This document shows positions 48,763 through 64,000 of a stretch of 64,000 nt of DNA, one piece after another. Origin of the DNA: Pseudomonas fluorescens (GTDB lineage: Bacteria; Pseudomonadota; Gammaproteobacteria; Pseudomonadales; Pseudomonadaceae). The DNA lies in the NCBI RefSeq assembly GCF_000730425.1, contig NZ_CP008896.1, positions 2,480,001 to 2,544,000 of the forward strand, in the 5' to 3' direction. Each line of letters starts with the position of its first letter. The stretch's first letter is position 1. The position numbers and the translations under genes are program-made. The notes under the pieces are model-generated. The model did not search any database. It worked only from the letters and a program-made list of their open reading frames with translations, and had not been told where the DNA came from.

Positions 48763-49433
48763 TGGAATTCGATTTCAGCGGCATCATCCCGGCCATCCCC
48801 GGCCTGTGGAACGGCATGGTCATGACCTTGAAGCTGATGGTCATGGGCGTGATCGGCGGCATCATCATCGGCACCATCCTCGCGCTGATGCGCCTGTCCT
48901 CCAGCAAGCTGCTGTCCCGCGTGGCCGGCGCCTACGTGAACTACTTCCGCTCGATCCCGCTGCTGCTGGTGATCACCTGGTTCTACCTGGCGGTGCCGTT
49001 CGTGTTGCGCTGGATCACCGGCGAAGACACGCCCATTGGCGCGTTCACCTCCTGCGTCGTGGCATTCATGATGTTCGAGGCCGCGTACTTCTGCGAAATC
49101 GTGCGGGCCGGCGTGCAGTCGATCCCCAAGGGCCAGATGGCGGCGGCGCAAGCGATGGGCATGACCTACGGCCAGACCATGCGCCTGATCATCCTGCCCC
49201 AGGCGTTCCGCAAGATGACCCCGCTGCTGTTGCAGCAGAGCATCATCTTGTTCCAGGACACCTCGCTGGTCTACACCGTGGGCCTGGTGGACTTCCTCAA
49301 CTCCGCCCGTTCCAATGGCGACATTATCGGCCGCTCCAATGAGTTCCTGATCTTTGCCGGTGTCGTCTACTTCATCATCAGCTTTGCCGCCTCGCTGCTG
49401 GTCAAGCGTCTGCAAAAAAGGTTTGCCGTATGA
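48762..49433 (+). CDS. aatM: Glutamate/aspartate ABC transporter permease (GltK type)
   Basis: The second permease of the heterodimer, 223 residues, with five predicted helices and its own EAA loop (..[29 protein letters not shown]..). It begins [18 protein letters not shown], like GltK. It is translationally coupled on both sides (TAATG before, ATGA after). Confidence 0.94.
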
Positions 49434-50164
49434 TCTCTATCAAGAACATCAACAAGTGGTATGGCGACTTCCAGGTGCTGACCGATTGCAGCACCGAGGT
49501 CAAGAAAGGCGAAGTGATCGTGGTGTGCGGGCCGTCCGGCTCGGGCAAATCCACCCTGATCAAATGCGTCAACGCCCTGGAACCGTTCCAGAAAGGTGAC
49601 GTGGTGGTCGACGGCACTTCGATTGCCGACCCGAAGACCAACCTGCCGAAACTGCGCTCGCGCGTTGGCATGGTGTTCCAGCACTTCGAGCTGTTCCCGC
49701 ACATGACCATCACCGAAAACCTGACCGTCGCGCAGATCAAGGTGCTGGGGCGCAGCAAGGAAGAAGCCACCAAGAAAGGCCTGCAACTGCTGGAGCGCGT
49801 TGGCCTCTCGGCGCATGCCCACAAGCACCCGGGCCAGCTTTCCGGTGGCCAGCAGCAGCGCGTGGCGATTGCCCGCGCCCTGGCCATGGACCCGATCGTC
49901 ATGCTGTTCGACGAACCGACTTCGGCCCTGGACCCGGAGATGGTCAACGAAGTACTGGACGTGATGGTGCAACTGGCCCACGAAGGCATGACCATGATGT
50001 GCGTGACCCACGAGATGGGCTTCGCCCGCAAAGTGGCCGACCGCGTGATCTTCATGGATGCCGGCAAGATCATCGAAGACTGCCCCAAAGAAGAGTTCTT
50101 CGGTGATATCAGCGCCCGCTCCGAACGTGCGCAGCACTTCCTCGAGAAAATCCTGCAGCACTAA
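49430..50164 (+). CDS. aatP: Glutamate/aspartate ABC transporter ATPase (GltL type)
   Basis: The ATP-hydrolysing subunit of 244 residues: Walker [10 protein letters not shown] (near residue 36), signature [15 protein letters not shown], Walker [15 protein letters not shown] and the switch His in [13 protein letters not shown]. It matches the polar amino-acid ATPase subfamily. It ends the operon and is followed by a REPIN. Confidence 0.95.
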
Positions 50165-50177
50165 AACACGACCGGCA

Positions 50178-50262
50178 CAGTAGGAGCCGGCTGGCCGGCG
50201 ATGGGGCCCTTGAAATCCCTGGTGATCTCTAGGCCCTCATCGCTGGCAAGCCAGCGCCTACA
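50178..50262. repeat. REPIN between transporter and aauS
   Basis: AGTAGGAGCCGGCTGGCCGG (from 50179) and the inverse ..CGCTGGCAAGCCAGCGCCTA (to 50260) flank about 35 bp. The two copies differ in the arm sequence. Confidence 0.85.
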
Positions 50263-50314
50263 TTAATCCGCGCCCTTAGTGGGTAAGTGCAGTGGTTGAC
50301 CCAAGGCATCTGTG

Positions 50315-52216
50315 ATGAAATGCGACCCCACCCTCTATCGCGCCGCGCCGCCATCCCTTGCCGTGAAGCCTCGTCTGATTCGCCAATTGTTCCTGCCCCC
50401 CCTGATCATCCTGTTGATGATCGGCCTGGGCTTTATCGGCTTCTGGACCAGCGAGCACTACGGCATCCGCACCCTGGGCGAGAACGGCGAGCGCCAGCTG
50501 GAATTGCATGCGCGCACGGTCGAGAGTGAGATCAGCAAGTACACCTACCTGCCCAGCCTGCTGGAGCTGGAATCCAGCGTCTCCAAGCTGCTGGCCGAAC
50601 CGAACCCGGAACACCGGCAAGCAGTCAACGAATACCTCGAAGGCCTGAACCGGCGTAGCCGCAGTCGGGCGATTTATGTGATGGACACCACCGGCCGTGT
50701 GATGGCTACCAGTAACTGGCGCGATGCCGACAGTTACCTGGGCGAAGACCTGTCGTTTCGCGCCTATTTCCAGAATGCCGTGCGTGGCCAGCCGGGCCGT
50801 TTCTATGGCATCGGCAGTACCAACGGCGAACCCGGCTACTACCTGGCCCATGGCCTGGAGGAACGCGGCAAGATCATTGGCGTCGCGGTGGTCAAGGTAC
50901 GCCTGGAGGCGTTGGAAGAGCGCTGGCAGCGTGCGCGCCTGGAAGCCTTTGTCAGCGACGAGAACGGCATCATCATCCTCTCCAGTGACCCGGCACGCAG
51001 ACTCAAGGCGGTGCGCCCACTGAGCGATGACACCAAGGAACGCCTGGCCCGCAGCCTGCAGTATTACTGGGCGACCCTCAATGAACTGCAACCCCTGGCC
51101 CGCGAACAGCTCGACGCCGGCACCGAGAAACTGACGTTCCCCGCCAACAGTGAAGTGGTGACCGACGACCAGGAAGTCACCTACCTGGCCCAGACCCGGC
51201 CCCTGAACGATACGCCGTGGAATTTCACCCTGCTCACCCCGCTCAACGACCTGCGCCAGGCGGCGATCAATCAGGGCATCCTCGTTGCGGTAGCCTTTGC
51301 CCTGGTGGCATTCCTGCTGATTGCCTGGAACGAGCGACGCAAGGTCATTGCCACGCGCCTGGCCGCCCGGGAGGCCCTGCAGGAAGCCAACAACCAGTTG
51401 GAACGGCGGATTGCCGAGCGCACCAGCGACCTGCGGGCCAGCAACGAGCGACTCAAGGCGCAGATCCGCGAACGACGGCAGGCCGAAGAGACCCTGCGTC
51501 GGGCCCAGGACGAATTGGTCCAGGCCGGCAAGTTGGCCGCCATCGGCCAGATGTCCACCAGCATCGCCCATGAACTGAACCAGCCCCTGGCCGCCCTGCG
51601 CACCTTGTCCGGCAATACCGTACGCTTCCTGGAGCGCGGTGCACTGGAAACCGCCAGCACCAACCTCAAGACCATCAACGAATTGATCGACCGTATGGGC
51701 CGCATCACCGCCAGCCTGCGCTCGTTTGCCCGGCGTGGCGACGACCAGGGCGAAGCCAGCCTGGGCAAGGCCGTGGAGGCAGCATTCCAGGTCCTGGGCA
51801 GTCGCCTCGACAGCCTGCCACTGACCGTACACCGTGGCTTCAGCCAGGCCATGTTGCAGATCGACCAGACGCGCCTGGAACAGATCCTGGTCAACCTGAT
51901 CGGCAACGCCCTGGATGCGATGCACGCCCAGCCCGCCCCCGAGCTGTGGCTGGAAAGTGACCTCCACGACGGCAAGTACCGCCTGTGGGTGCGGGACAAC
52001 GGGCATGGCATCGACCCGCAGATCCGCAAGCATCTGTTCGAACCTTTTTTCACCACCAAACCCGGCGAGCAAGGGTTGGGCCTGGGCCTGACCCTGTCGG
52101 CCAGCCTCGCGGCGGCCACCGGCGGCAACCTCGCCGTCGAGCACCCGGCCGATGGTGGTACGGCCTTTGTCCTGAGCCTGCCCCTGGCAGGCCATCAACC
52201 CGGCGAATCGATATGA
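50315..52216 (+). CDS. aauS: Sensor histidine kinase AauS
   Basis: DctB-like kinase for acidic amino acids. The 633-residue protein has a membrane helix at about 24-45, a periplasmic double-PDC sensor (about 50-320), a second helix (about 325-343), a coiled-coil and the kinase core. The phospho-acceptor His is in ..STSIAHELNQPLAALRT.., and N/G boxes are ..NLIGNALDAM.., ..DNGHGID.. and ..GLGLGLTLS... I chose ATG 50315. The GTG three bases earlier is also possible. It overlaps aauR by 4 bp. Confidence 0.93.
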   Translation: MKCDPTLYRAAPPSLAVKPRLIRQLFLPPLIILLMIGLGFIGFWTSEHYGIRTLGENGERQLELHARTVESEISKYTYLPSLLELESSVSKLLAEPNPEHRQAVNEYLEGLNRRSRSRAIYVMDTTGRVMATSNWRDADSYLGEDLSFRAYFQNAVRGQPGRFYGIGSTNGEPGYYLAHGLEERGKIIGVAVVKVRLEALEERWQRARLEAFVSDENGIIILSSDPARRLKAVRPLSDDTKERLARSLQYYWATLNELQPLAREQLDAGTEKLTFPANSEVVTDDQEVTYLAQTRPLNDTPWNFTLLTPLNDLRQAAINQGILVAVAFALVAFLLIAWNERRKVIATRLAAREALQEANNQLERRIAERTSDLRASNERLKAQIRERRQAEETLRRAQDELVQAGKLAAIGQMSTSIAHELNQPLAALRTLSGNTVRFLERGALETASTNLKTINELIDRMGRITASLRSFARRGDDQGEASLGKAVEAAFQVLGSRLDSLPLTVHRGFSQAMLQIDQTRLEQILVNLIGNALDAMHAQPAPELWLESDLHDGKYRLWVRDNGHGIDPQIRKHLFEPFFTTKPGEQGLGLGLTLSASLAAATGGNLAVEHPADGGTAFVLSLPLAGHQPGESI

Positions 52217-53553
52217 ACAGCCAACCCAATACCGAACTGACTGTGCTGATCGTCGAAGACGATCCCCACGTGTTGCTCGGCTGCCAGCAAGCCCTGGCCC
52301 TGGAAGATATTCCCAGTGTCGGCGTGGCCAGTGCCGAAGAAGCGCTCAAGCGCGTCGGCGAGAACTTTGCCGGCATTGTGATCAGTGATATCCGCCTGCC
52401 TGGCATCGACGGCCTGGAGCTGTTGACCCGCCTCAAGGCCCTGGATAAAAGCCTGCCGGTGGTGCTGATCACCGGCCACGGCGACATTTCCATGGCCGTT
52501 GGTGCGATGCGCAATGGCGCCTATGACTTCATGGAAAAACCTTTCTCCCCGGAGCGCCTGGTGGACGTGGTCCGCCGCGCCCTCGAACAGCGTGGCCTGG
52601 CCCGGGAAGTCTGGGCGCTGCGCCGGCAACTGGCCGAGCGCGATTCCCTGGAAGGCCGGATCATCGGGCGCTCGCCAGCGATGCAGAACCTGCGCGAATT
52701 GATCGCCAACGTCGCCGACACCTCGGCCAATGTGCTGATCGAAGGTGAAACCGGCACCGGTAAGGAGCTGGTCGCCCGCTGTCTGCACGACTTCAGTCGC
52801 CGCCACGCCCACCAGTTCGTCGCCCTGAACTGCGGGGGCCTGCCGGAAAACCTGTTTGAAAGCGAGATTTTCGGTCACGAAGCCAACGCCTTTACCGGTG
52901 CAGGCAAACGGCGTATCGGCAAGATCGAACATGCCCATGAAGGCACGCTGTTCCTCGATGAAGTGGAAAGCATGCCAATGAACCTGCAGATCAAACTGCT
53001 GCGGGTCCTGCAAGAGCGCACCCTGGAACGCCTGGGCTCGAACCAGAGCGTGGCCGTGGATTGCCGGGTCATCGCGGCCACCAAATCCGACCTCGACGAG
53101 CTGAGCCGCGCCAGCCAGTTCCGCAGCGACTTGTACTACCGCCTGAACGTAGTGACCCTGGAACTGCCGCCGCTGCGTGAGCGCCGCGAAGACATCCTGC
53201 AACTGTTTGAACACTTCCTGCAGCAGTCATCCCTGCGCTTCGACCGCATCGCCCCGGAGCTGGACAACCAGACCCTGTCCAGCCTGATGAGCCATGACTG
53301 GCCCGGCAACGTGCGTGAACTGCGCAACGTCGCCGAGCGTTTTGCCCTGGGCCTGCCGGCCTTCAAGAAAAGCGGCGCCAGCACCGACAACCATGGCCTG
53401 GCCTTTACCGAAGCGGTGGAAGCCTTTGAGCGCAACCTGCTCAGCGACGCCCTGCAACGCAGTGGCGGCAACCTGACCCAGGCCAGCCTGGAACTGGGAA
53501 TGGCCAAGACCACCCTGTTCGACAAGGTCAAGAAATACGGCCTGAGCCATTAA
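52213..53553 (+). CDS. aauR: Sigma-54-dependent response regulator AauR
   Basis: DctD-like activator of the acidic amino-acid regulon. The 446-residue protein has a receiver domain (Asp in ..GIVISDIRLPGIDG..), an AAA+ domain (Walker A GETGTGKE, ..GTLFLDEVESMP..) and a Fis-type HTH at the end (..GNLTQASLELGMAKTTLFDKVK..). The sigma-54 contact loop reads NAFTGA instead of GAFTGA. Two boxes fitting its target and a sigma-54 promoter lie upstream of the transporter genes. Confidence 0.93.
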   Translation: MNSQPNTELTVLIVEDDPHVLLGCQQALALEDIPSVGVASAEEALKRVGENFAGIVISDIRLPGIDGLELLTRLKALDKSLPVVLITGHGDISMAVGAMRNGAYDFMEKPFSPERLVDVVRRALEQRGLAREVWALRRQLAERDSLEGRIIGRSPAMQNLRELIANVADTSANVLIEGETGTGKELVARCLHDFSRRHAHQFVALNCGGLPENLFESEIFGHEANAFTGAGKRRIGKIEHAHEGTLFLDEVESMPMNLQIKLLRVLQERTLERLGSNQSVAVDCRVIAATKSDLDELSRASQFRSDLYYRLNVVTLELPPLRERREDILQLFEHFLQQSSLRFDRIAPELDNQTLSSLMSHDWPGNVRELRNVAERFALGLPAFKKSGASTDNHGLAFTEAVEAFERNLLSDALQRSGGNLTQASLELGMAKTTLFDKVKKYGLSH

Positions 53554-53563
53554 GGAGTAAGGC

Positions 53564-53902
53564 GTGGATTTAGTTTTCAAGGCCGCCCTCGGTGCGGCGG
53601 TGGTGTTGATCCTGGCGATGCTGGCCAAGACCAAGAACTACTACATCGCCGGGCTGGTGCCGCTGTTTCCGACCTTTGCCCTGATCGCCCACTACATCGT
53701 CGGCAAGGGCCGTTCGGTGGACGATTTGAAGACCACGATTGTGTTCGGCATGTGGTCGATCATTCCGTACTTTGTCTACCTGGCGACCTTGTATGTAATG
53801 GTCGACCGCCTACGGCTGGAGGCCTCCCTGGCGGTGGCCGCAGTGGCGTGGCTGATGGCGGCGACGGTGCTGGTCAGCGTGTGGGTACGCATCCACGCCT
53901 GA
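53564..53902 (+). CDS. glpM: GlpM family membrane protein
   Basis: A 112-residue protein with four predicted membrane segments, starting with GTG 53564 after AAGGAGTAAG. It resembles GlpM of P. aeruginosa (..AKTKNYYIAGLVPLFPTFALIAHYIVG..), whose exact function is unknown though it was linked to alginate production. In PAO1 glpM follows glpD. Here it follows aauR, 10 bp after its stop codon, and is probably cotranscribed with it. Confidence 0.88.
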   Translation: MDLVFKAALGAAVVLILAMLAKTKNYYIAGLVPLFPTFALIAHYIVGKGRSVDDLKTTIVFGMWSIIPYFVYLATLYVMVDRLRLEASLAVAAVAWLMAATVLVSVWVRIHA

Positions 53903-54021: not shown

Positions 54022-55419
54022 TCAGCGCACGATCTTGTCGATCTGGATGCCGAGCTTTTTCAAGCGGTACCAGAAGCTGCGCTCGGAGATGCCGATCCTC
54101 GACGCCGCAGCGGCCTGTACCCCATTGCTCTCCTGCAACGCCGCCAGGATGTAGGCCTTCTCCACTTCCGCCAGCGCCGCATCCAGGTCCTGGGGTACGC
54201 CCGGGCCTTCGCTGAGGATCGTCGTCACGCCCCGCTCCGTGGGTTGGGACGCGAACAGATAGGCTGGCAGGTCAATGTCCTCGATCACCGGGCTGGCAGC
54301 CACGATGGTCGCGCGCTCCACGCAGTTTTGCAGCTCGCGGATATTGCCCGGCCAGCTGTAGGCGGCCATGGCCTGCAAGGCATCTGCGCTGAAGCCGGTG
54401 ATGCGTTTTCCGGCATTGGCACTCAGGCTGTGGGCAAAGTGCCGGGCCAGCGGGGCGATGTCTTCGACGCGCTCGCGCAGGGCGGGCAGTGGGATCGGGA
54501 ACACGTTGAGACGGTAGTAGAGGTCCTCGCGAAATTCCTTGTTCGCCACTGCATCCAGCAGGTTCTTGTTGGTGGCGGCGATCACTCGCACGTCCACCTT
54601 GCGTTCGCGCGGATCGCCCACCGGCTCGATCACCCGCTCCTGCAAGGCGCGCAGGATCTTGGCCTGCAACGCCAGGGGCATGTCACCCACTTCATCAAGA
54701 AACAGCGTGCCCTTGTCGGCCTGCATAAAACGCCCTACCCGGTCGGCCACGGCGCCGGTAAATGCGCCTTTGCGATGGCCGAACATCTCGCTTTCCAGCA
54801 AACCTTCGGGGATCGCGGCGCAGTTGACCGCCACAAAGGGTTTGTCTGCGCGGTTGCCATGCTTGTGGATGGCGCGGGCGACCATTTCCTTGCCGGTGCC
54901 GCTTTCGCCGGTCAACAGGATGGTCGCGTTGCTCTCGCGTACCGAGTCCACCGCGTGCAGCACCCGCCGAAACGCCGGGCTATCGCCCACCAGGCTATCG
55001 AACTGCGCGTGCTCATCGAGCTCGGCACGCAGCCGTGCGTTGTCGCGCATGATGTCGCGAAACTGCAAGGCCTTGGCCACGGTGATATCCAGCTCGTCGA
55101 TATCGAAGGGCTTGGCAATGTAGTCGTAGGCGCCGTTGCGCATCGACTGCACGGCATTCTTCACGGTGCTGTAGGCCGTCATCACAATCACTGGCAACTG
55201 CGGGTAGCGCACCTTGATCTCGGCCAGCAACTGCGGGCCATCCATGCCGGGCATGCGCCAGTCGCTGATCACCAGGTCGATGTCTTCCTGCTCCAGCACC
55301 TTGAGGGCATGCAGGCCATTGCCGGCGATAAACACCTGGATGTCGTTCTGGCTCAGGGCCGACGACAGCAAATCGCAGAGCTTGGGCTCGTCGTCGACCA
55401 CCAATATGTTATGCGTCAT
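54022..55419 (-). CDS. Sigma-54-dependent response regulator (NtrC type)
   Basis: The 465-residue activator has a receiver domain (Asp in ..DLVISDWRMPGMDG..), an AAA+ domain with Walker A GESGTGKE and an intact GAFTGA loop (..GHRKGAFTGAVADRVG..), and a Fis-type HTH (..GVQAAAASRIGISERSFWYRLKKLG..). It overlaps the kinase gene by 11 bp and is the last gene of the minus-strand operon. It most likely activates that same operon through the sigma-54 promoter at 61374-61389. ATG 55419 was chosen because the protein then begins directly with the receiver (MTHNILVVDDEP). Confidence 0.9.
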   Translation of the reverse strand: MTHNILVVDDEPKLCDLLSSALSQNDIQVFIAGNGLHALKVLEQEDIDLVISDWRMPGMDGPQLLAEIKVRYPQLPVIVMTAYSTVKNAVQSMRNGAYDYIAKPFDIDELDITVAKALQFRDIMRDNARLRAELDEHAQFDSLVGDSPAFRRVLHAVDSVRESNATILLTGESGTGKEMVARAIHKHGNRADKPFVAVNCAAIPEGLLESEMFGHRKGAFTGAVADRVGRFMQADKGTLFLDEVGDMPLALQAKILRALQERVIEPVGDPRERKVDVRVIAATNKNLLDAVANKEFREDLYYRLNVFPIPLPALRERVEDIAPLARHFAHSLSANAGKRITGFSADALQAMAAYSWPGNIRELQNCVERATIVAASPVIEDIDLPAYLFASQPTERGVTTILSEGPGVPQDLDAALAEVEKAYILAALQESNGVQAAAASRIGISERSFWYRLKKLGIQIDKIVR

Positions 55420-57187
55420 GACTCTCCTCGTCGTCGCCGTCATCTTCGCCGTTGGCCGGAATGTACAGGCTGAAGGTGGCGCCAGCATCTTTCTCGCTAG
55501 TGCATTCGATGCGGCCCTCGTGGCTTTCCATGATGGAATAGACTTTCGCCAGGCCAAGGCCCGTGCCCGACGCCTTGGTGGTGACGAAGGGGGTAAAGAT
55601 CCGCTCGATCATTGCAGGCTCGATGCCCTGGCCACTGTCGCTGATGCTGATCACCGTGCAGCCATCGACCCGACTGATGCTCAAGGTCAGGCGCCCGTCC
55701 TGGGGCATGGCGTCGACGGCGTTGAGGATCAGGTTCAGGCACGCCTGCTTGATTTGCTTGGCGTCGGCATAGAGGGTGGCGCCGGGCGCCTGGTCGTCAA
55801 GGCGTGCGTCGATGGCATGGCTGGCCAACTCCGGCGCGCAGAAGCCAAGGATTTCCTCCACCAATGGCCGCGCCAGTTGCCGGGTGCGCAGTGGTTCGCT
55901 GGGCTTGGCGAAGTCGAGGAAGTCGGTAATCAGGTCATTGATCCGGCTGACTTCGCTGACCACGTATTCCAGGTGGCGCTTGTCGGTCTGGGGCAGGTCC
56001 GTGCGGCGGTGCAGCAGTTGGGTCGCGGTCTTGATGATACCCAGCGGATTGCGGATTTCATGGGCCAGGCCCATCGCCACTTCGCCCAGGGCATGCAGGC
56101 GGTCTCGGCGGCGCAGTTGGGCTTCGAGGTGATGCAGCTCGCCCAGGCGCTCGGTCATATGGTTGAAGGTGCTGCTCAGTTGCGCCAACTCGTCACCGCC
56201 GGTGACGGCCACCCGGTGCTGGTAGTTGCCACTGATCACCGCACTCACGCCCTGGGACAATTCGCGCAGCGGCCGGGTCAGGTGCCTTGAGACCAGCACC
56301 CCGGCACCCAGGGACAGCGCCGAACTGAGCAGGAAAATCAGCACGAACAGATTGCTCTGGTTCACCAGCCCCACCAGGCTGGTGTGGCGCAACAGGCCAC
56401 TGAAGATCACACCCTGCAACTCGCCAGTGTCATTGAAGATCGGCCAGTACAGGCCGCTGTAGTTACTGGTGAACTGTTCACTGGGCTGCTTGGTGCTGCG
56501 CAGCAGGGTTTCCACGGATTTCGGCACGCGGGTGGGATGGTCTTCAAAACGCTGGGTAGAGAAAATCTCCGAGAAGCCATCGGTATTGGCCAGGTACAGG
56601 CGCAAGTCCAGGGAGTGTACCTCGGCGACACTGGTCAGGAAGCTACTGTCCAGGTAGGTGCCTACCAACAGTTCGTAATCGACGCCATCCTGACTGGTCT
56701 CGAACGAGGAAATCACTGCCCCGGTGGCCACGCCACCGACCTGCACGGTTTGCAATACGGCATTGGGGGCAAGGCTGATCTGTTTCACCACATCATCACC
56801 CACCGTGCTGAACATCACTTTGCCGTCACTGGTGCGAATCAGGGTTACCACGTCAATATCAGTAGCCCTGGCAATGTCCGCGATCAAACGGTCATGACGC
56901 AGCGCTTCGTGGGTGGACAGCGGGCGCACATATCGCAGGAAAATCTGCGCCACACGGGCGTTGTCGTGCAGGATGTCGCTGACTTCATCCTTGACGATGC
57001 GGGTCGATTCCTGCAGCCAGATGCGCACGTTGCTGTCGAAAATCTGCGACAGCGTGGTGGCCGCCAGTTCGGCGGCGATCATCGTCGGGATCACCGTCAC
57101 CAGCCAGAACGCCAACACCAGCTTGCGCTGCAGGCTCCAGCGGGAAATGGCAAATGGGCGGGCTTTCTGGCGGGTCTTGGCAATCAT
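55409..57187 (-). CDS. Membrane sensor histidine kinase
   Basis: The 592-residue kinase has a membrane helix (about 26-46), a large periplasmic sensor region (about 50-275, PDC/Cache-like), a second helix (about 282-304), HAMP, and a kinase core with the phospho-acceptor His in ..GLAHEIRNPLGIIKTA.. and ATP-binding ..LNLILNAVDAM.., ..SDSGQGIE.., ..GTGLGLAKV... The stop codon of the preceding gene overlaps its ATG (ATGA). The ligand is unknown, but the operon suggests it senses a substrate or product of the linked enzymes. Confidence 0.9.
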   Translation of the reverse strand: MIAKTRQKARPFAISRWSLQRKLVLAFWLVTVIPTMIAAELAATTLSQIFDSNVRIWLQESTRIVKDEVSDILHDNARVAQIFLRYVRPLSTHEALRHDRLIADIARATDIDVVTLIRTSDGKVMFSTVGDDVVKQISLAPNAVLQTVQVGGVATGAVISSFETSQDGVDYELLVGTYLDSSFLTSVAEVHSLDLRLYLANTDGFSEIFSTQRFEDHPTRVPKSVETLLRSTKQPSEQFTSNYSGLYWPIFNDTGELQGVIFSGLLRHTSLVGLVNQSNLFVLIFLLSSALSLGAGVLVSRHLTRPLRELSQGVSAVISGNYQHRVAVTGGDELAQLSSTFNHMTERLGELHHLEAQLRRRDRLHALGEVAMGLAHEIRNPLGIIKTATQLLHRRTDLPQTDKRHLEYVVSEVSRINDLITDFLDFAKPSEPLRTRQLARPLVEEILGFCAPELASHAIDARLDDQAPGATLYADAKQIKQACLNLILNAVDAMPQDGRLTLSISRVDGCTVISISDSGQGIEPAMIERIFTPFVTTKASGTGLGLAKVYSIMESHEGRIECTSEKDAGATFSLYIPANGEDDGDDEESHDA

Positions 57188-58311
57188 CGGGTTTCGCTTA
57201 TTGCAGCAGCCATGGCAGGGTCGGATCGGTCCGGGCGAATAAACACTTTTACCACCTTGAGCAGGGTGTCGATCAGGCGGTTGCGGTGCTGGAAGAACAG
57301 CACGTTGCCCGCGAACTCGCAGCCCAGGCGTAGCTTACTGGCATACCCGGCCTGCCCGCACTCATACAACGCAATATTGTGCTCGATGCAATAGTCGACG
57401 TTGGTCAGCCAACTGCGAAAGTACAAGTTGTGTTCGCGGCTGTGGGCCAGGTCGTGGGCAAAGAATTTGTCGATCAGGCGATGCTGGTCCAGCAGCACCA
57501 GGTTGAACGCCACCAATTGCCCATCCACCCAGTAAAGTACACAGCGCGCCCGTTGTTCAAGCCGGGCGAGCACCTGGCTGAAATAACCGGCAGGCAGGCG
57601 TTCAAATTGCAGGTCGGCACGGGCCAGGGTCGCTTCATAGAGGCGCATGAGGTCGGGCAGCACGTCATCGACATTGTCCCGCCACTCTACCTGCGGCCCC
57701 GGCGCGCGCAGCTTGCGCCGCAAATCCTTGCGCGTGGACTTGCCCAGGGAGCCCAGGTAGGCATCCACCGAACCGTAGGGCAGCGGCAGCAGCCCGGTCG
57801 GCAGGCTGGGCATGCTGTGCAGGCCGGCGGCCTTGCAGCTGTCGGCCCAGTCCTGGTCCAGGGTCGGGGCGTCCTTGACCGCCAGCAGGCCGATGCCCAA
57901 GACATCGGCGTCCCGACGTGCCGCGCTCAGCAGTTGCTCCAGCAAGGCGCCACGCCGTGACGCAGGTACACCGCTTGCGACACCGGCATGGCATTGCTCG
58001 GCCACTGGCGAGCCGATGGCGTAAAGGCCCAGGCGCAACACCCCGGGCCACCAGCGCTCCAGACGTTGGGTGAAACGCTTGGCGAAGCCCGACACGGTGG
58101 TGTCGAGGCGGTAATGGGTAATAAACGCCGGGGCGACCGCCAGCAGTTGCCCGTCCTCGTAGAGGGCCAGGTAACGCCATTGGAAGTCGTCGATGCCCGC
58201 ATTTTCCACGGCGACGTAGTAGTCCCAATCTTCCAACGCCTGGGGAAAGCAGTCGTTCCAGGCACTGCGGTCGATGGCGTGGATGGTTGAGTAGGCTTTA
58301 GCGCTGATCAC
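57184..58311 (-). CDS. FemAB/GNAT-like acyl- or aminoacyltransferase
   Basis: The 375-residue soluble protein has an N-terminal domain (..YYVAVENAGIDDFQWRYLALYEDGQLLAVAPAF.. read in pieces) and a C-terminal GNAT-like half (..STRKDLRRKLRAPG.. near residue 195, ..VDGQLVAFNLVLLDQHRLIDKFFAHD.., ..YECGQAGYASKLRLG..) typical of COG3146-class and FemX-related transferases. The reaction is unknown. It starts with GTG 58311, 75 bp after the hydrolase stop codon, the only real gap in the operon. Confidence 0.75.
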   Translation of the reverse strand: MISAKAYSTIHAIDRSAWNDCFPQALEDWDYYVAVENAGIDDFQWRYLALYEDGQLLAVAPAFITHYRLDTTVSGFAKRFTQRLERWWPGVLRLGLYAIGSPVAEQCHAGVASGVPASRRGALLEQLLSAARRDADVLGIGLLAVKDAPTLDQDWADSCKAAGLHSMPSLPTGLLPLPYGSVDAYLGSLGKSTRKDLRRKLRAPGPQVEWRDNVDDVLPDLMRLYEATLARADLQFERLPAGYFSQVLARLEQRARCVLYWVDGQLVAFNLVLLDQHRLIDKFFAHDLAHSREHNLYFRSWLTNVDYCIEHNIALYECGQAGYASKLRLGCEFAGNVLFFQHRNRLIDTLLKVVKVFIRPDRSDPAMAAAISETR

Positions 58312-58386
58312 AGCATTTCCTTAATCTAAAAACACCGCGCAAACCGGGCCACATGCATCATCGTTCACGACCATCGCGGGGCTGCG

Positions 58387-59241
58387 TCAGGCCCGGCGAT
58401 ACTCGTCCACAGGGGTGGTGTGCTGCTCGATAAAGTCGGCACTCAACTCGATCACACGGCGGTATTGCAGGTCGACGGTGATCATGTGGTAGCAGTTGTC
58501 CAGCAGGATCTTGGTCACCGGCCCGCCCAGGTGACGCTCCACATAATCGGCGTTCCAACGGCTGGTGATGTCATCCTCGATGGAGTGCAGCACCAACGCC
58601 GGGGTCTTGATCGAGGGCATGCGTTTTTTCACCACGGCGTTCATCCAGTGCAGCTCGCGTACGGTGACGCCTTCCATGGTCAATAACCCGGCCTCGCTGC
58701 TCTCGCCCTCTTTCATCTGCCGCTCGACAATGGCCCGCAGGCGCTCGTTCTTGATGCCGTAGGGCGGCTTCTCGGTGAAACGGAACAGGCGCACGCCGAA
58801 GGGGATGCGGATCAGCAACGGCGTGATGAACGCCATTTTGTTGATGCTCCAGCCGTCGTACTTGAGGGTCGTGGAGTACATCAGCAGCCCCGCAACCTGG
58901 CCCGCAAACTCCGAAGCCAGGTACATCGACATCACCGCCCCCATGGACAAGCCCCCGACGAACACCTGCCCATGGCGCTGCCGCACCCCGACGAAGGTCT
59001 TGCGCACGCCCTCGTACCAGTCGCGCCAGCCGGTAGCCTGCAGGTCTTCGTTGCCCCCGCAGTGCCCGGCCAGCGTTGGCACGTACACCGTGCAATTGCC
59101 CCCCTTGGCCAGGCCCTGGGCGACCCGCCGCAGCTCGGTCGGGGTGCCGGTCAGGCCGTGGATCAACAAGACCCCGACCGGACCGTTGCCGAGAACGAAG
59201 CCGGCGTTGCCTTCGCCGAGATCGATATCGGCCAGGTTCAC
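58387..59241 (-). CDS. Alpha/beta hydrolase (monoacylglycerol lipase/carboxylesterase type)
   Basis: The 284-residue protein has the oxyanion motif ..LIHGLTGTPTELR.. (near residue 26) and nucleophile elbow GLSMG (Ser near residue 99). An Asp lies in ..HSIEDDITS.. near residue 223 and a His in ..NCYHMITVD.. near residue 252, completing a triad. It lacks a signal peptide. It starts with GTG 59241, overlapping the aminotransferase stop codon (GTGA). Confidence 0.85.
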   Translation of the reverse strand: MNLADIDLGEGNAGFVLGNGPVGVLLIHGLTGTPTELRRVAQGLAKGGNCTVYVPTLAGHCGGNEDLQATGWRDWYEGVRKTFVGVRQRHGQVFVGGLSMGAVMSMYLASEFAGQVAGLLMYSTTLKYDGWSINKMAFITPLLIRIPFGVRLFRFTEKPPYGIKNERLRAIVERQMKEGESSEAGLLTMEGVTVRELHWMNAVVKKRMPSIKTPALVLHSIEDDITSRWNADYVERHLGGPVTKILLDNCYHMITVDLQYRRVIELSADFIEQHTTPVDEYRRA

Positions 59242-60632
59242 CGCTTCATCGCTCGGGTCAGCAGTTGCTCCAGCAGCTTCAAGCCCAGGTCGATTTCCGG
59301 GTAGCTGATTTCCAGGGACGGCGCCAGGGTGATCACGTTCTTGTAGTAACCGCCCACATCGAGGATCAGCCCGAGTTTCTGGCCGTCGACCAGCATGTCA
59401 CCTTTCATGCCCTCCTCAACCATGTAGTCCAGGGTCGCCTTGTCTGGCGTGAAGCCATCGGGGCCGCAGATTTCGCAGCGCAGCGCCAGGCCCAGGCCAT
59501 CGACGTCGCCGATGATCGGAAAGCGCTTTTGCAGGTCCTGCAGGCCTTCAAGGAAGTATTTGCCCTTGGCCATGACCATCGCGCCGTAGTCGACTTCGCT
59601 GGTCATCTTGAACATTTCCAGGCCCACCGCCGTTCCCAGTGGGTTGGAGGCAAACGTGGAGTGGGTGGAACCCGGCGGGAAGAGTTTCGGGTTGATCAGC
59701 TCTTCCTTGGCCCAGATGCCGCCCAGGGGGTTGAGGCCGTTGGTCAGGGCCTTACCGAACACGATCACGTCCGGCTGCACATCGAAGTGCTCGATCGACC
59801 ACAGTTTGCCGGTGCGCCAGAAGCCCATCTGGATTTCGTCGACCACCATCAGGATGCCGTGCTGGTCGAGCACCTGCTTGAGCTCGCTGTAGAAATTCAT
59901 CGGCGGGATCACGTAGCCGCCGGTGCCCTGGATCGGCTCCACATAGAAGGCTGCGTATTCGCTCTGGCCGACTTTCGGGTCCCACACACCGTTGTATTCA
60001 GTCTCGAACAGGCGCGCGAACTGTTGCACGCAATGGCTGCCGTACTCTTCCTTGGTCATGCCCTTGGGGCCGCGGAAGTGGTAGGGGAACGGGATGAAGT
60101 TGGCGCGTTCGCCAAAGTGGCCGTAGCGCCGACGGTAGCGGTAGCTGGAGGTGATGGACGACGCGCCGAGGGTGCGCCCGTGGTAGCCGCCTTCAAAGGC
60201 GAACATCAGGCTCTTGCCGTTGCTGGCGTTACGCACGACCTTGAGCGAGTCCTCGATGGACTGCGAGCCGCCGACATTGAAATGCACACGCCCGTCGAGG
60301 CCGAATTTTTTCTTCGCATCCACCGCGATCATTTCTGACAGCTCGATCTTGCCCTTGTGCAGGTACTGGCTGGCGATTTGCGGCAGGGTGTCGATTTGCT
60401 GTTTCAGCGCATTGTTCAGGCGCGGGTTGGCGTAGCCGAAGTTGACCGCCGAGTACCACATTTGCAGGTCGAGGTAGGCCTGGTCTTCGGTGTCCCACAC
60501 ATAGGAACCTTCGCAACGGCTGAAGATACGCGGCGGGTCGATGTAGTGAACGGTGTCGCCGTAGGAGCAGTATTTGGCCTCTTTATCCAGCAGAACCTGG
60601 TCTTCGGCGGTAGCGATACGGATATCAGACAT
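59238..60632 (-). CDS. Class III PLP-dependent aminotransferase
   Basis: The 464-residue protein has the fold-type I class III features: ..YVWDTEDQAYLDLQMWYSAVNFGYANP.. (read in parts), ..FEGGYHGRTLGASSIT.. near residue 150, ..VVDEIQMGFWRTGK.. near residue 268, and the PLP lysine in ..VIVFGKALTNGLNPLGG... ATG 60632 overlaps the phosphatase gene by 8 bp. An amino-group acceptor or donor such as an omega-amino acid or diamine is likely. The substrate cannot be read from sequence. Confidence 0.88.
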   Translation of the reverse strand: MSDIRIATAEDQVLLDKEAKYCSYGDTVHYIDPPRIFSRCEGSYVWDTEDQAYLDLQMWYSAVNFGYANPRLNNALKQQIDTLPQIASQYLHKGKIELSEMIAVDAKKKFGLDGRVHFNVGGSQSIEDSLKVVRNASNGKSLMFAFEGGYHGRTLGASSITSSYRYRRRYGHFGERANFIPFPYHFRGPKGMTKEEYGSHCVQQFARLFETEYNGVWDPKVGQSEYAAFYVEPIQGTGGYVIPPMNFYSELKQVLDQHGILMVVDEIQMGFWRTGKLWSIEHFDVQPDVIVFGKALTNGLNPLGGIWAKEELINPKLFPPGSTHSTFASNPLGTAVGLEMFKMTSEVDYGAMVMAKGKYFLEGLQDLQKRFPIIGDVDGLGLALRCEICGPDGFTPDKATLDYMVEEGMKGDMLVDGQKLGLILDVGGYYKNVITLAPSLEISYPEIDLGLKLLEQLLTRAMKR

Positions 60633-61323
60633 GATGAAAGAGTTCCTGAGTGTCGGAAGAAAAGTGGGTGGCATTGGCGGCGCTGCCCTGGGGCAGTTTG
60701 GCCAGCAAGGCCGGGAGTTCGGCAAAGGTGTCGAAACACAGATGGGGGATGGCGTGGGCCTGGCAGTACTGCGCCAGGCTGCCCTTGGCAAAGACAAAAT
60801 CGGCAGTGGTGGACACGCACATATCGGACTTGCCGTCGCCAATCACCAGCACCCGTTTGTTACGCGGGGTGGACTTGCATTTGCAGTTGCCCGAGGCCGC
60901 GCGGCAGGCGTCACTGGAATGGGGGAAGTCGATGCGCCAGCTGTTCTGGTCGACCTGGCGCAGGCGGTTGGCGATGATCGGCAGCAGGGTCACGTAGTTG
61001 CGTGACAGGATCCGCGCGATGCCTTGCTCAATGCCGTCGCTGACCACCTCAAGGGAAGCGCCGAGGCCCAGGACGTGGTCGACGAAGTCCGGGAAATCCG
61101 GATCGATCTCGACCGTGTCGAAGTACGCCAGCAGTTCGGCCGGTGTCGCCTTGATCAGCGCCAGTTGGCGGCTCAGGCATTCGCGTGAACCGATATGGCC
61201 GTCCAGCCATTGCTGTTCGATGGTTTCCCACTCGGGGCCGGCGAAACGTTGGAGCACGTTGTCGATGACATCGGTGGGTGTGATGGTCCCATCGAAGTCA
61301 CACACGATATGCCAGTCATTCAT
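60625..61323 (-). CDS. HAD-IB phosphatase, MtnX/SerB-like
   Basis: The 232-residue protein has HAD motif I ..CDFDGTITPTDV.. (residues 8-19), a motif II Ser in ..EVVSDGIE.. and motif IV GDGKSD near residue 168, so it should be an active phosphomonoesterase. A cysteine-rich insert (..CRAASGNCKCKS.., about residue 143) is unusual. It is the first gene of the operon, 40 bases downstream of the predicted transcription start. Linked to an aminotransferase, it could dephosphorylate a phospho-amino-alcohol or phosphoserine-like metabolite, by analogy with SerB. Confidence 0.82.
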   Translation of the reverse strand: MNDWHIVCDFDGTITPTDVIDNVLQRFAGPEWETIEQQWLDGHIGSRECLSRQLALIKATPAELLAYFDTVEIDPDFPDFVDHVLGLGASLEVVSDGIEQGIARILSRNYVTLLPIIANRLRQVDQNSWRIDFPHSSDACRAASGNCKCKSTPRNKRVLVIGDGKSDMCVSTTADFVFAKGSLAQYCQAHAIPHLCFDTFAELPALLAKLPQGSAANATHFSSDTQELFHHV

Positions 61324-61373
61324 CTGCGTTTACCTTGGATGCTAGCGCGCTGATGCGCCGTTGCCAGGGATAG

Positions 61374-61389
61374 AGCAGGGACTGTGCCA
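61374..61389 (-). promoter_or_regulatory. Predicted sigma-54 promoter of the phosphatase-aminotransferase operon
   Basis: On the minus strand TGGCACAGTCCCTGCT has the -24 GG and -12 GC with the required 10-base spacing and strong matches around both. It is 51-66 bp before the first gene of the operon, whose last gene is a sigma-54 activator. Confidence 0.75.
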
Positions 61390-61454
61390 AGTGGGGAAAG
61401 CCCAACGGGGCCGGGGCTCGCGGGCGTGCCGGGGCGATAAACCACGCCCCGGAG

Positions 61455-61480
61455 CTACAATTTTTGTAGGTCTCTACAAA
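61455..61480. promoter_or_regulatory. Palindromic enhancer-like site
   Basis: CTACAA-N3-TTGTAG and TTTGTAG-GTCT-CTACAAA share the central half-site, so three alternating half-sites lie in 26 bp. The site is 66-106 bp upstream of the sigma-54 promoter and midway to mipA, the expected place for the operon's own activator to bind. Confidence 0.65.
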
Positions 61481-61550
61481 CAAGATGAGTGCTTGCGCAG
61501 CCCCCCGCGCCTGGGCGTTCATGCGCGTATGTTTTCGAGAGAGCAATCCC

Positions 61551-62318
61551 ATGAAGTACAGGATGAGTTCGGCGCTGTTCGCCGGTTTGCTTGGCCTCTG
61601 GGCCGGCGCGGCAGTGGCGCAAGGCATCAGCGGTGAGGTCGGCCTGGGCGCCAGCTACCAGCCCCGCGAGCCCACCGGCAGCCGCTATCACACGGTGCCG
61701 GTGCCCTACTTCGACCTCGATTGGGGAAATGTCAGCCTTGATACCGACGACGGCCTGACCTGGAGTGCGCTCAACCACAATGGCTTCAGCGCTGGCCCCT
61801 ACCTCAACTACCTGCCCGGGCGCACGGCCAATGGCCCGCTACAGGGCTTGCGGGATGTGTCGGACATGGCCGAGGTTGGCGGGTTTGTCCAATATGCACC
61901 GGCTGACTTCTGGCGGGTCTACGCGCAGCTGGGGCGCAGTGTGGGCGGCGCTCATGAGCAGAGCGGCGTACTCGGCAGGCTCGGCGGTGAACTGGGTTAC
62001 CCATTGGGCGGCGGGGTCATTGGCAGCACCGGGCTGGTGGCACACTTTGCCGACGACAGCCAGGCCCAGACGTTTTTCGGCGTAGACGAGCATGAGGCGG
62101 CGGCATCGGGGTTTCGCCCGTACAACGCCAGCGGCGGGTTCCAGAACCTGACGTTGACCCAGAGCCTGCAGATCCCGCTGGCGCCCAAGTGGTCGTTGCT
62201 CACCAGTGCCAGTTGGGTGCATCTGGTGGGATCGGCGGCCGACAGCAGCATCGTGCGCCAGGCCGGCGAGGTGAACCAGGGGCAGGTACAGACGGCGATC
62301 AGCTACACCTTCGATTGA
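61551..62318 (+). CDS. MipA/OmpV family outer-membrane protein
   Basis: The 255-residue protein has a signal peptide (MKYRMSSALFAGLLGLWAGA..A-Q) and then a beta-barrel pattern of alternating residues and Gly/Tyr-rich turns, ending ..QVQTAISYTFD with a terminal aromatic-acidic end suited to BAM insertion. MipA/OmpV proteins act in the outer membrane, some as scaffold or porin-like. ATG 61551 follows GAGAG. It is divergent from the HAD operon and shares the gap with the palindromic enhancer-like site. Confidence 0.88.
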   Translation: MKYRMSSALFAGLLGLWAGAAVAQGISGEVGLGASYQPREPTGSRYHTVPVPYFDLDWGNVSLDTDDGLTWSALNHNGFSAGPYLNYLPGRTANGPLQGLRDVSDMAEVGGFVQYAPADFWRVYAQLGRSVGGAHEQSGVLGRLGGELGYPLGGGVIGSTGLVAHFADDSQAQTFFGVDEHEAAASGFRPYNASGGFQNLTLTQSLQIPLAPKWSLLTSASWVHLVGSAADSSIVRQAGEVNQGQVQTAISYTFD

Positions 62319-62488: not shown

Positions 62489-62902
62489 TTAGTTTTCTTC
62501 GCCCTCGGCCAGCAGCGCGATCCCGCCAATAATCACCACCACGCCCACCCAGTGCAGGACGCTGATGTGCTCACCCAGGCCCAACCACGAGCCGAGCAAC
62601 ACCACCACAAACACCAGCGAGCTCAGGGGAAAAGCCAGGGACAGGCTGCTGCGCCGCAGGATCAGCATCCACACAAAGAACGCACCGATGTAACAGGCAA
62701 TAGCCGCCAGAATCCCGGGATTGACCGCCACCGCCGCCAGCCATTGCCAGTTGAAATCCATCTGCCCGATTTGATCGCCGGCGATCTTGGTAAACAGCTG
62801 GCCGGCGCTTTCGGTGAGGATCAACAACGCCCATAACACCAGCGTGCCCAGGCGCCCATGCAGCCAGCCTGCCGGGCGGATAGCGATTTCTTGCGAACTC
62901 AT
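62489..62902 (-). CDS. Small DMT/EamA-type membrane transporter subunit (second)
   Basis: The 137-residue protein has four predicted membrane segments (about 20-37, 54-72, 79-98, 111-130) in the small multidrug resistance/ArnF size class (..LSLAFPLSSLVFVVVLLGSWLGLGEHIS.. read in parts). It overlaps the preceding, similar gene by 4 bp. Paired short subunits of this type act as heterodimeric flippases or exporters, as with ArnE/ArnF. It starts at ATG 62902. Confidence 0.85.
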   Translation of the reverse strand: MSSQEIAIRPAGWLHGRLGTLVLWALLILTESAGQLFTKIAGDQIGQMDFNWQWLAAVAVNPGILAAIACYIGAFFVWMLILRRSSLSLAFPLSSLVFVVVLLGSWLGLGEHISVLHWVGVVVIIGGIALLAEGEEN

Positions 62903-63279
62903 GATTGCGCTCCTGCTACCGCCACCAGCATCACGCCGGCGGTAATCACCAGAGTGCCCAGCCAGCGCCGGCGGCTGACGGTCTCCCCCAGCACCACTTT
63001 GCCCGCCAGCACCACCCCGCAATAAGCCAGCGCAGCGGCCGGGAACAGCAGGCTCAACGGCGCACGGGACAAGGCTTCGAGCCAGACAAAAAATTCGATG
63101 ACATAGGCGCCGATTCCCGCCCACAGCAGCGGCGCATTGAACACCTGGCCCCAGAAGGCATTCAGGCGAAACCCGCCGTCCAATTCGGGCAAGCGGTCCA
63201 GGCCCAGTTTGAAACACAGTTGGCCGATCACATCGAGCACGATGGAAAAGGCCACCAACAACACTACGGTCAGGGTCAC
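62899..63279 (-). CDS. Small DMT/EamA-type membrane transporter subunit (first)
   Basis: The 126-residue protein has four predicted membrane segments and the pattern ..FFVWLEALSRAPLSLLFPAAALAY.. shared with its downstream partner (..FFVWMLILRRSSLSLAFPLSS..). GTG 63279 overlaps the preceding gene's stop codon (GTGA). The pair probably forms one exporter or flippase linked to the arginase-like gene. Confidence 0.85.
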   Translation of the reverse strand: MTLTVVLLVAFSIVLDVIGQLCFKLGLDRLPELDGGFRLNAFWGQVFNAPLLWAGIGAYVIEFFVWLEALSRAPLSLLFPAAALAYCGVVLAGKVVLGETVSRRRWLGTLVITAGVMLVAVAGAQS

Positions 63280-64000
63280 GGGAACAGTTCCTCGAACAGG
63301 TTGATCAACGCCTCATTGGTCGCCGCGTTACGCAACAGATCATCCGCGCTCCAGCGTTCGGCCGGCGGCTGGTCGGACTTGGCCTCCCAACGCTTGAAGG
63401 CGTTGCTGAACGCAGGCGTAGCAAACTCGCCACATACATCGATGCCGATGATCCGCTTGCTCGCCGCCAACGCACGCAAGGCCTGCAACAGATGGGTCAG
63501 GCGCATGCCGCCCTGGTCCCAGTTGGTGGCCGCGTCTTCGCTGGCCAGCACGTCCTTGTCGAGGGTGATCCACACCGCCTCGGTGGGCAGGCTGGCGATC
63601 ATCTGCTCAAGGAAGGCGGGCCAGTCGAGCTCAGCCAGGTTGCGCCAGTGCAGGTGGTTTTCCTGTTGTGCGTGGCCGGCACCATCCCCGACGCGGCCCC
63701 AGACTTTCGACGGTGGGTGCTGCCACGGAAACAACTGCAAGTGACCGCGCCTGAGGGCCCCAAGGTTGCCGCCACGCAGTTGCGGGTTATGCAAGTCGTC
63801 GCTGCATGGGCCGAGGGTGACGATACGTTTGATCGCCGGCATCTTCAGCGCCTGGTTGACCCACGAGCCGCAGTGCCGTCGCGGTGCCAGGCGTACCCAG
63901 TCAGGATGGTTGTCAAAGTGGATCAGGCTGATGGGCTCCTGCACCTCGGCGAGAAAGGCCGGGGTCAGGTGGTGATAGTCGCCGGAGCCGACAAAGAAGA
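63276..64000 (-). CDS. Arginase/agmatinase-fold protein, N-terminus outside the window
   Basis: The frame is open to the right edge, and about 240 C-terminal residues are visible. The metal-binding type motif ..HFDNHPDW.. (cf. D-x-H-x-D of ureohydrolases), an upstream ..GSGDYHHLT.. (cf. GGDHS) and ..WITLDKDVLASEDAAT.. (cf. S-x-D-x-D) place it in the ureohydrolase superfamily. The motifs deviate: DNHPD in place of DAHxD, and LDKD in place of the usual SxDxD. So the substrate may not be a guanidino compound. It is translationally coupled to two small membrane proteins. Confidence 0.75.
   Translation of the reverse strand, partial: FFVGSGDYHHLTPAFLAEVQEPISLIHFDNHPDWVRLAPRRHCGSWVNQALKMPAIKRIVTLGPCSDDLHNPQLRGGNLGALRRGHLQLFPWQHPPSKVWGRVGDGAGHAQQENHLHWRNLAELDWPAFLEQMIASLPTEAVWITLDKDVLASEDAATNWDQGGMRLTHLLQALRALAASKRIIGIDVCGEFATPAFSNAFKRWEAKSDQPPAERWSADDLLRNAATNEALINLFEELFP

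Follow-up and report, generated by a model that had tools for sequence, protein, structure and literature searches.

We analysed a 64,000-nucleotide stretch of Pseudomonas fluorescens DNA (the window; G000:C1:2480001-2544000 in a 6.06-Mb genome) in which six minus-strand genes were read as a metabolic operon with its own two-component system. In the direction of transcription they encode an MtnX-like HAD-IB phosphatase (60625..61323), a class III pyridoxal 5'-phosphate (PLP) aminotransferase belonging to a highly conserved subfamily (59238..60632), a monoacylglycerol-lipase-like alpha/beta hydrolase (58387..59241; PF12146/PF12697), a FemAB/COG3146-like tandem-GNAT transferase (57184..58311; PF04339, PF13480), a membrane histidine kinase (55409..57187) and a sigma-54-dependent response regulator (54022..55419). 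The gene order and families given in the initial annotation held, as did its claim of overlaps at every junction except one. Phosphatase and aminotransferase genes overlap by 8 nt, aminotransferase and hydrolase genes by 4 nt, FemAB-like and kinase genes by 4 nt, and kinase and activator genes by 11 nt; a 75-nt gap between the hydrolase and FemAB-like genes is the sole non-overlapping junction. The aminotransferase start at 60632 was taken from reading the sequence, and the open reading frame ends listed at 55557 and 60842 are extensions upstream of likely starts, with the regulator probably beginning MTHNILVVDD. The further claim of a single transcription unit that carries its own two-component system was also supported.

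The six-gene extent proved too small. Past mipA/ompV, a divergent outer-membrane protein gene and possible member (61551..62318, plus strand; PF06629; start inferred from a signal-peptide-like N-terminus), three more genes lie on the operon strand and are joined by 4-nt overlaps. They encode an arginase-family (ureohydrolase-fold) enzyme (63276..64000 in the window, the gene ending beyond it at 64196) and two small EamA-type membrane proteins, the first subunit at 62899..63279 and the second at 62489..62902. The intergenic region shared by mipA and the phosphatase gene holds, both on the minus strand, a -24/-12 (sigma-54) promoter element at 61374..61389 and an enhancer-like palindrome at 61454..61480, a probable binding site for the activator. 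The span originally assigned to the unit ended at the outer end of the promoter element (61389) and did not include the palindrome.

The promoter element, TGGCACAGTCCCTGCT, is a perfect match to TGGCACR-N4-YTGCW and the sole mismatch-free match in the window. Upstream regions (250 bp before the phosphatase, with starts picked by expected length) were scored in 89 loci, comprising 80 Pseudomonas loci and 9 of 23 from other genera. The Pseudomonas loci were the best 80 of at least 574 (67 full-length, 13 shorter) and are mostly close relatives, so that counts over them are not independent. TGGCAC-N6-TGC was seen about 60-100 bp before the phosphatase start in 79 of the 80. The sole exception, L066, carries the phosphatase, aminotransferase and hydrolase genes without kinase and activator; this is a second, stand-alone copy in P. 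libanensis (L066 9229-12258), whose regulated copy is L067. Of the nine other-genera regions, L139, L141, L144 and L153 scored at least 10/12 with both core dinucleotides. A sigma-54 activator was found near L139, L141 and L153, and L144, from the genus of L141, is cut at a contig edge. The remaining five scored 8 or 9 of 12 and were judged to lack the element: L031, L032 and L145 with a regulator of another type nearby, L154 with a distant activator match only, and L140. Shuffled regions (five per locus, base composition kept) reached at least 9/12, the level of most Pseudomonas elements, in 39 of 445 cases, and the case for the promoter therefore rests on its fixed position and conservation and not on its score.

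Alignment of 79 upstream regions revealed the palindrome as a conserved block, TTTGTAG-N4-CTACAAA followed by TTGTAG (which also gives CTACAA-N3-TTGTAG), about 85 bp further upstream of the -24/-12 element. The exact palindrome is present in one copy in the genome, and CTACAANNNTTGTAG likewise occurs exactly once; with two mismatches allowed there were 13 further sites, equal to a reversed control pattern. Among 149 Pseudomonas genomes the aminotransferase was present in 45 and the exact palindrome in 40. The palindrome was found in 39 of the 45 aminotransferase-positive genomes versus 1 of the 104 negative ones (Fisher p 2.6e-28, not corrected for relatedness), and each of these 39 sites lies 823-910 bp away from the aminotransferase; as other Pseudomonas loci had supplied the motif, this test stays within its group of origin. 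One aminotransferase-positive genome, G514, has a second exact palindrome away from the operon (G514:C14:68216-68233), a possible further target.

The site was also seen outside Pseudomonas, in a shorter form. L141 carries CTACAATTTTTGTAG, which is found in L144 with one mismatch. Their genus belongs to another class of the phylum, probably the Alphaproteobacteria; its nearest plasmid DNA is mostly Rhizobium, at a query coverage of up to 29%. The aminotransferase occurred in 2 of 41 genomes of this genus, G285 (the source of L141, seen beforehand) and G576 (new). In both, exact CTACAANNNTTGTAG lies 858 bp upstream of the aminotransferase, and it was found elsewhere in 1 of the 39 aminotransferase-negative genomes. 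No palindrome site was found at L139 and L153. We conclude that the wiring was kept, or moved jointly with the genes, between classes.

The regulator has a receiver (PF00072), an AAA+ sigma-54 domain (PF00158) and a Fis-type helix-turn-helix (PF02954), its partner kinase gene adjoins, and the target operon carries what, by sequence and conservation, are a -24/-12 promoter and an upstream activator site. From the single exact site in the genome and its tracking of the aminotransferase we conclude that the operon encoding the activator is also the main target of this protein, or its only strong one. These genes thus very probably form a two-component system with one dedicated target, and we are highly confident that regulation of this one-operon kind is what the sequence encodes. 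A further conserved block, GCAAGCACT (61488-61497), lies on the mipA side of the palindrome, with nine positions at least 95% conserved in the 79 Pseudomonas loci. No sigma-54 promoter for mipA was recognised by eye in the intergenic region, and no further search was made.

A sample of the phylum (398 genomes, 212 genera) gave 25 positive genomes, 5 of them Pseudomonas, in 12 genera. The initial annotation had named confinement to close relatives as grounds for giving up the unit; the distribution found was wider. The order phosphatase-aminotransferase-hydrolase was kept in 80/80 Pseudomonas loci, and since this core also recurs in other families, the gene set is more than a chance association. 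In the 67 full-length Pseudomonas loci, kinase, activator and an adjoining mipA were each found in 66, and with length filters applied the counts were 56 for an intact FemAB, 45 for the arginase-family gene and 57 for the EamA pair. The other-genera loci (n=19, labelled by tblastn) were drawn from 20 positive genomes, G480 being left out, and several stop at contig edges. These contained phosphatase (16), hydrolase (17), FemAB (10), EamA (10, with two copies in 8), arginase (9), DegT aminotransferase (7), ketosynthase (KAS; 6), acyl carrier protein (ACP; 5), HlyD with a DevC-like permease (5) and cyclopropane synthase (1) genes. All such counts describe gene content per locus, and a gene absent from a locus may sit elsewhere in the genome. 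FemAB was missing or broken in 11/67 Pseudomonas loci and seen in only 10/19 from other genera, and was rejected as a core member. The core, as gene content defines it, is phosphatase, aminotransferase and hydrolase with FemAB optional, and not the four-gene block with COG3146 that had been put forward. When the unlabelled open reading frames (100 aa or longer) of 27 loci were compared all-versus-all, no further family was common to more than three loci.

Individual loci varied around this core. Between the hydrolase and kinase genes, L041 (12425-12502) and L055 (12379-12495) retain FemAB remnants, suggesting recent loss of the gene with the rest of the operon kept. A second FemAB-like gene, 37% identical, lies inside the arginase-EamA group of L112 (5379-6677). 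Thirteen of the 67 full-length Pseudomonas loci have a fatty-acid-desaturase-like gene between the second EamA gene and mipA, and L157, whose aminotransferase is 54% identical, lacks all of the scored partner genes (phosphatase to MBOAT). An Agrobacterium tumefaciens plasmid carries phosphatase, aminotransferase, arginase, EamA, hydrolase, GNAT and EamA genes, then genes for TolC, a DevC-like permease, an ABC protein and HlyD. Related sets were found on a Rhizobium CIAT894 plasmid, with desaturase and cyclopropane synthase genes, and on a Xanthomonas sacchari plasmid, with ketosynthase, ACP and DegT genes and also HlyD, ABC and TolC genes. The plasmid of Bartonella sp. HY328 has aminotransferase, GNAT and MBOAT genes and a weak arginase match, with no phosphatase and no hydrolase within 21 kb; on a Bartonella plasmid (L029 8177-9601) the amino-acid transporter gene cycA adjoins the aminotransferase gene. 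In the window itself, the segment at 49430-53553 on the activator side encodes an ABC-transporter ATPase, a kinase and a sigma-54 activator, and two sigma-54 two-component systems face each other here. This segment, which we take to resemble the AauS/AauR-Aat acidic amino acid system, is separated from the operon by glpM (53564-53902).

The three core enzymes were examined for hints of chemistry, with residue conservation counted over the 99-105 rows that had a full reading frame. The phosphatase matched TIGR01489 at 85.5 bits, above the cut-off of 81.55, and D9, D11 and G162-D163 are conserved. It was not assigned as MtnX of methionine salvage (92.8 bits against a curated cut-off of 303.2), and no other salvage gene was seen beside it. 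The aminotransferase (PF00202, 244.5 bits) is 100% identical over 463 residues to the P. gessardii DSM 17152 enzyme, and the best 120 of 6572 database matches were all at least 74% identical. Lys294 (numbered with the initial Met), by its motif presumably the PLP lysine, and Thr435 were each found in 105/105 rows. In class III aminotransferases of the gamma-aminobutyrate/ornithine type, which act on amino acids, a C-terminal Arg binds the alpha-carboxylate. The position of Thr435 is Arg in the solved chains 7vno, 9wqz and 9wrf, and class III chain 6io1 also lacks it. With Thr in place of this Arg in every row, one may fairly guess, but only guess, that the substrate lacks an alpha-carboxylate. 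A serinol route by an RtxA-like enzyme was considered and set aside, since from the part of the source consulted (PMC3222319) it could not be connected with the present aminotransferase subfamily. The best solved relatives of the hydrolase are bacterial monoacylglycerol lipases. Cys replaces the nucleophile Ser99 in three of the 99 rows aligned (with a gap in one more), and Asp224 and His252 were conserved in 99/99; the Cys enzymes are those of L031, L032 and L154, with Asp and His kept.

The predicted model of the FemAB-like protein (predicted local distance difference test, pLDDT, 91.1) was closest to Sbb17/Sba18, FemX, FemA and the MprF/L-PGS domain, with other tandem GNATs and N-myristoyltransferases ranking after them at lower Z (about 16-18). 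As modelled, its fold is thus closest to aminoacyl-tRNA-dependent transferases. The arginase-family protein matched PF00491 at 39.5 bits (cut-off 22) and keeps the metal motifs DNHPD, DKD and GSGDxHH in 9/9 aligned sequences. It fell in no curated arginase or agmatinase family (best in NCBIfam, PRK02190 agmatinase at 18.7 of 302 bits), and no solved relative was found by sequence at E 0.001. Its gene went with FemAB: FemAB was present in 45/45 arginase-positive full-length Pseudomonas loci and 11/22 arginase-negative ones, in 3/3 shorter arginase-positive loci judged (L075 ends just after the hydrolase), and in 12/12 arginase loci outside that set (L029-L032, L140-L143, L146-L149; L144 is cut before the FemAB place). 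Because arginase was seen only alongside FemAB, and FemAB sometimes alone, this pattern suggests that the arginase-fold enzyme may act after FemAB. On a core-gene tree, eight pairs gave four changes in the same direction, none opposite and four without difference, which was not significant (p 0.125). Both EamA proteins matched ArnF and ArnE best in NCBIfam, below the cut-offs of 99 and 92 bits: 51.6 and 35.4 bits for the first subunit, and 37.3 and 34.7 bits for the second, which was also below the EamA cut-off.

The kinase has HAMP, HisKA and HATPase domains behind a periplasmic sensor whose predicted model was of moderate quality (pLDDT 71.8). Foldseek matches to this part were among Cache receptors, and the model resembles double-Cache-like receptors for amino acids and dicarboxylates. 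Sensing of an extracellular ligand by the kinase, as initially proposed, is therefore plausible; that the ligand is related to the product is suggested by nothing seen here. In P. aeruginosa, MipA is a polymyxin-binding protein that assists signalling through ParR/ParS, and the study describing this notes that mipA frequently has two-component genes as neighbours (PMC10936184, consulted in part). On both grounds, envelope stress would be a reasonable first candidate signal.

Taken together, these results led us to propose, tentatively and at somewhat less than an even chance, that the locus encodes a dedicated inducible pathway to an amine-headed, acylated envelope compound, an aminolipid or lipid-like conjugate. 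The Cache-type kinase would receive a periplasmic signal and phosphorylate the activator, which would bind the single TTTGTAG-N4-CTACAAA/TTGTAG site and drive the sigma-54 promoter of its own operon. Aminotransferase and phosphatase could then make an amino-alcohol-type head group, onto which the monoacylglycerol-lipase-like enzyme, with its Ser or Cys nucleophile, would transfer an acyl chain. For the majority of the Pseudomonas loci seen, three further stages are proposed: the FemAB-like protein may attach an aminoacyl group (or an acyl group), trimming of that product may fall to the arginase-fold enzyme, and the ArnE/ArnF-like pair may carry it across the inner membrane. Our confidence in any single substrate is much lower. 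The fullest version, in which the acylated amino-alcohol receives an amino acid, perhaps arginine, from charged tRNA, is trimmed from arginyl to ornithyl and is flipped by the ArnEF-like pair, making an undescribed class of envelope lipid under a self-targeting two-component system whose site is kept across two proteobacterial classes, we regard as quite improbable.

The acyl and envelope side of this proposal leans on the KAS, ACP, exporter and EamA partners in other genera. The amine-related biosynthesis foreseen in the initial annotation was supported; the partner genes in other genera favour acyl chemistry, membranes and export over a free small metabolite. Its statement that the genes match no described pathway also stood, with no description of the cluster found in the open-licence PMC literature (titles and abstract starts). 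Several observations weigh against an envelope lipid. The window operon itself has no ACP, ketosynthase or exporter, and the argument for a lipid draws on association in other genera and on the relatives of the hydrolase. The plainest lipid genes are rare: desaturase and MBOAT were each found in 0/19 other-genera loci, which lowers our confidence in a lipid-type conjugate. The regulatory case, strong as it is, is read purely from DNA.

The alternative that survives best is an exported small molecule, such as a signal, antibiotic or polyamine conjugate, with the envelope genes serving export. In 5/19 other-genera loci, genes for HlyD and a DevC-like permease lie beside the cluster, HlyD, ABC and TolC genes accompany it on the Agrobacterium and Xanthomonas plasmids, and the two-component control could be autoinduction. 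However, no exporter was recognised by eye in 18 kb beyond the Pseudomonas operon, the core hydrolase resembles monoacylglycerol lipases, and desaturase, MBOAT or cyclopropane synthase genes occur in single relatives. We consider this explanation unlikely.

Defence against cationic peptides, in which membrane damage, with MipA as co-sensor, would induce an envelope lipid of positive charge alongside Arn and MprF, is a special case of the envelope-compound pathway, and we think it rather unlikely. An adjoining mipA in 66/67 full-length Pseudomonas loci, the polymyxin binding and ParR/ParS role of MipA in P. aeruginosa (as given in the part of PMC10936184 consulted), the ArnE/F-like pair and a predicted FemAB fold close to MprF all point towards it. 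However, MipA-type proteins may serve other roles, mipA was found in 1/19 other-genera loci and weakly (L141, 27% identity), and the kinase is of the Cache type and none of the known peptide sensors. Besides the operon, the genome carries arnB, a gene present in 18/45 operon-positive and 24/104 negative genomes.

Catabolism, with the kinase sensing an outside amine or phosphorylated amine that the enzymes degrade as a carbon, nitrogen or phosphorus source, is also doubtful: nutrient systems typically combine sigma-54 control with a sensor like the double-Cache-like one modelled here, the operon has an Aau-like uptake system as its neighbour, and cycA adjoins the aminotransferase in Bartonella and is present in 1/80 Pseudomonas loci (L053), but cycA was found in 0/19 other-genera loci, the recurring transporters there are ArnE/F-like proteins and HlyD/DevC-like exporters, and FemAB, ACP and ketosynthase are biosynthetic. 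From the recurring partners, a lipid-like or envelope-bound amine conjugate is somewhat more likely than a catabolic route.

If an envelope pathway of this kind does exist, about 30% of sampled Pseudomonas species (45/149) and scattered other proteobacteria would carry an inducible route to an amine compound of the envelope. Functions would then follow for COG3146-type transferases and for two orphan subfamilies, one of aminotransferases and one of arginase-fold enzymes, and one promoter, one activator site and one sensor offer a ready handle on the pathway.

Among known systems, the Arn pathway, which adds 4-amino-4-deoxy-L-arabinose (L-Ara4N) to lipid A, has two-component induction, a PLP aminotransferase and a pair of small EamA subunits by which a lipid-linked amine crosses the inner membrane. 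All three features are paralleled at the operon. However, no glycosyltransferase, ArnA or ArnT was recognised there, the EamA pair is below the ArnE/ArnF cut-offs, and the aminotransferase is class III and not of the DegT/ArnB type, a DegT enzyme being seen in other-genera loci. A genuine arnB lies elsewhere in the genome (G000:C1:2141282); replacement of Arn by the operon was rejected, since arnB occurs with and without it. The ornithine lipid pathway (OlsBA), a bacterial N-acyl aminolipid pathway, is alike in its amine head group, acyl transfer and proteobacterial distribution; it differs in that no OlsA/OlsB-type protein was found among the proteins scanned and the head group here is seemingly made by the cluster. 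MprF and FemABX proteins have the tandem-GNAT fold predicted for the FemAB-like protein, which is 9 to 19% identical to them, lacks a membrane domain and is encoded by an optional gene. The phosphatase belongs to the HAD-IB subfamily (TIGR01489) that also includes MtnX, and some acyltransferases of the alpha/beta-hydrolase fold use a Cys nucleophile, as do the hydrolases of L031, L032 and L154. The kinase and activator are similar in architecture to DctB/DctD and AtoSC-type systems; each falls below the curated cut-off of every one of the 25 families listed for it (of 85 and 118 matched) and, unlike those systems, the two have a single exact target site, at their own operon.

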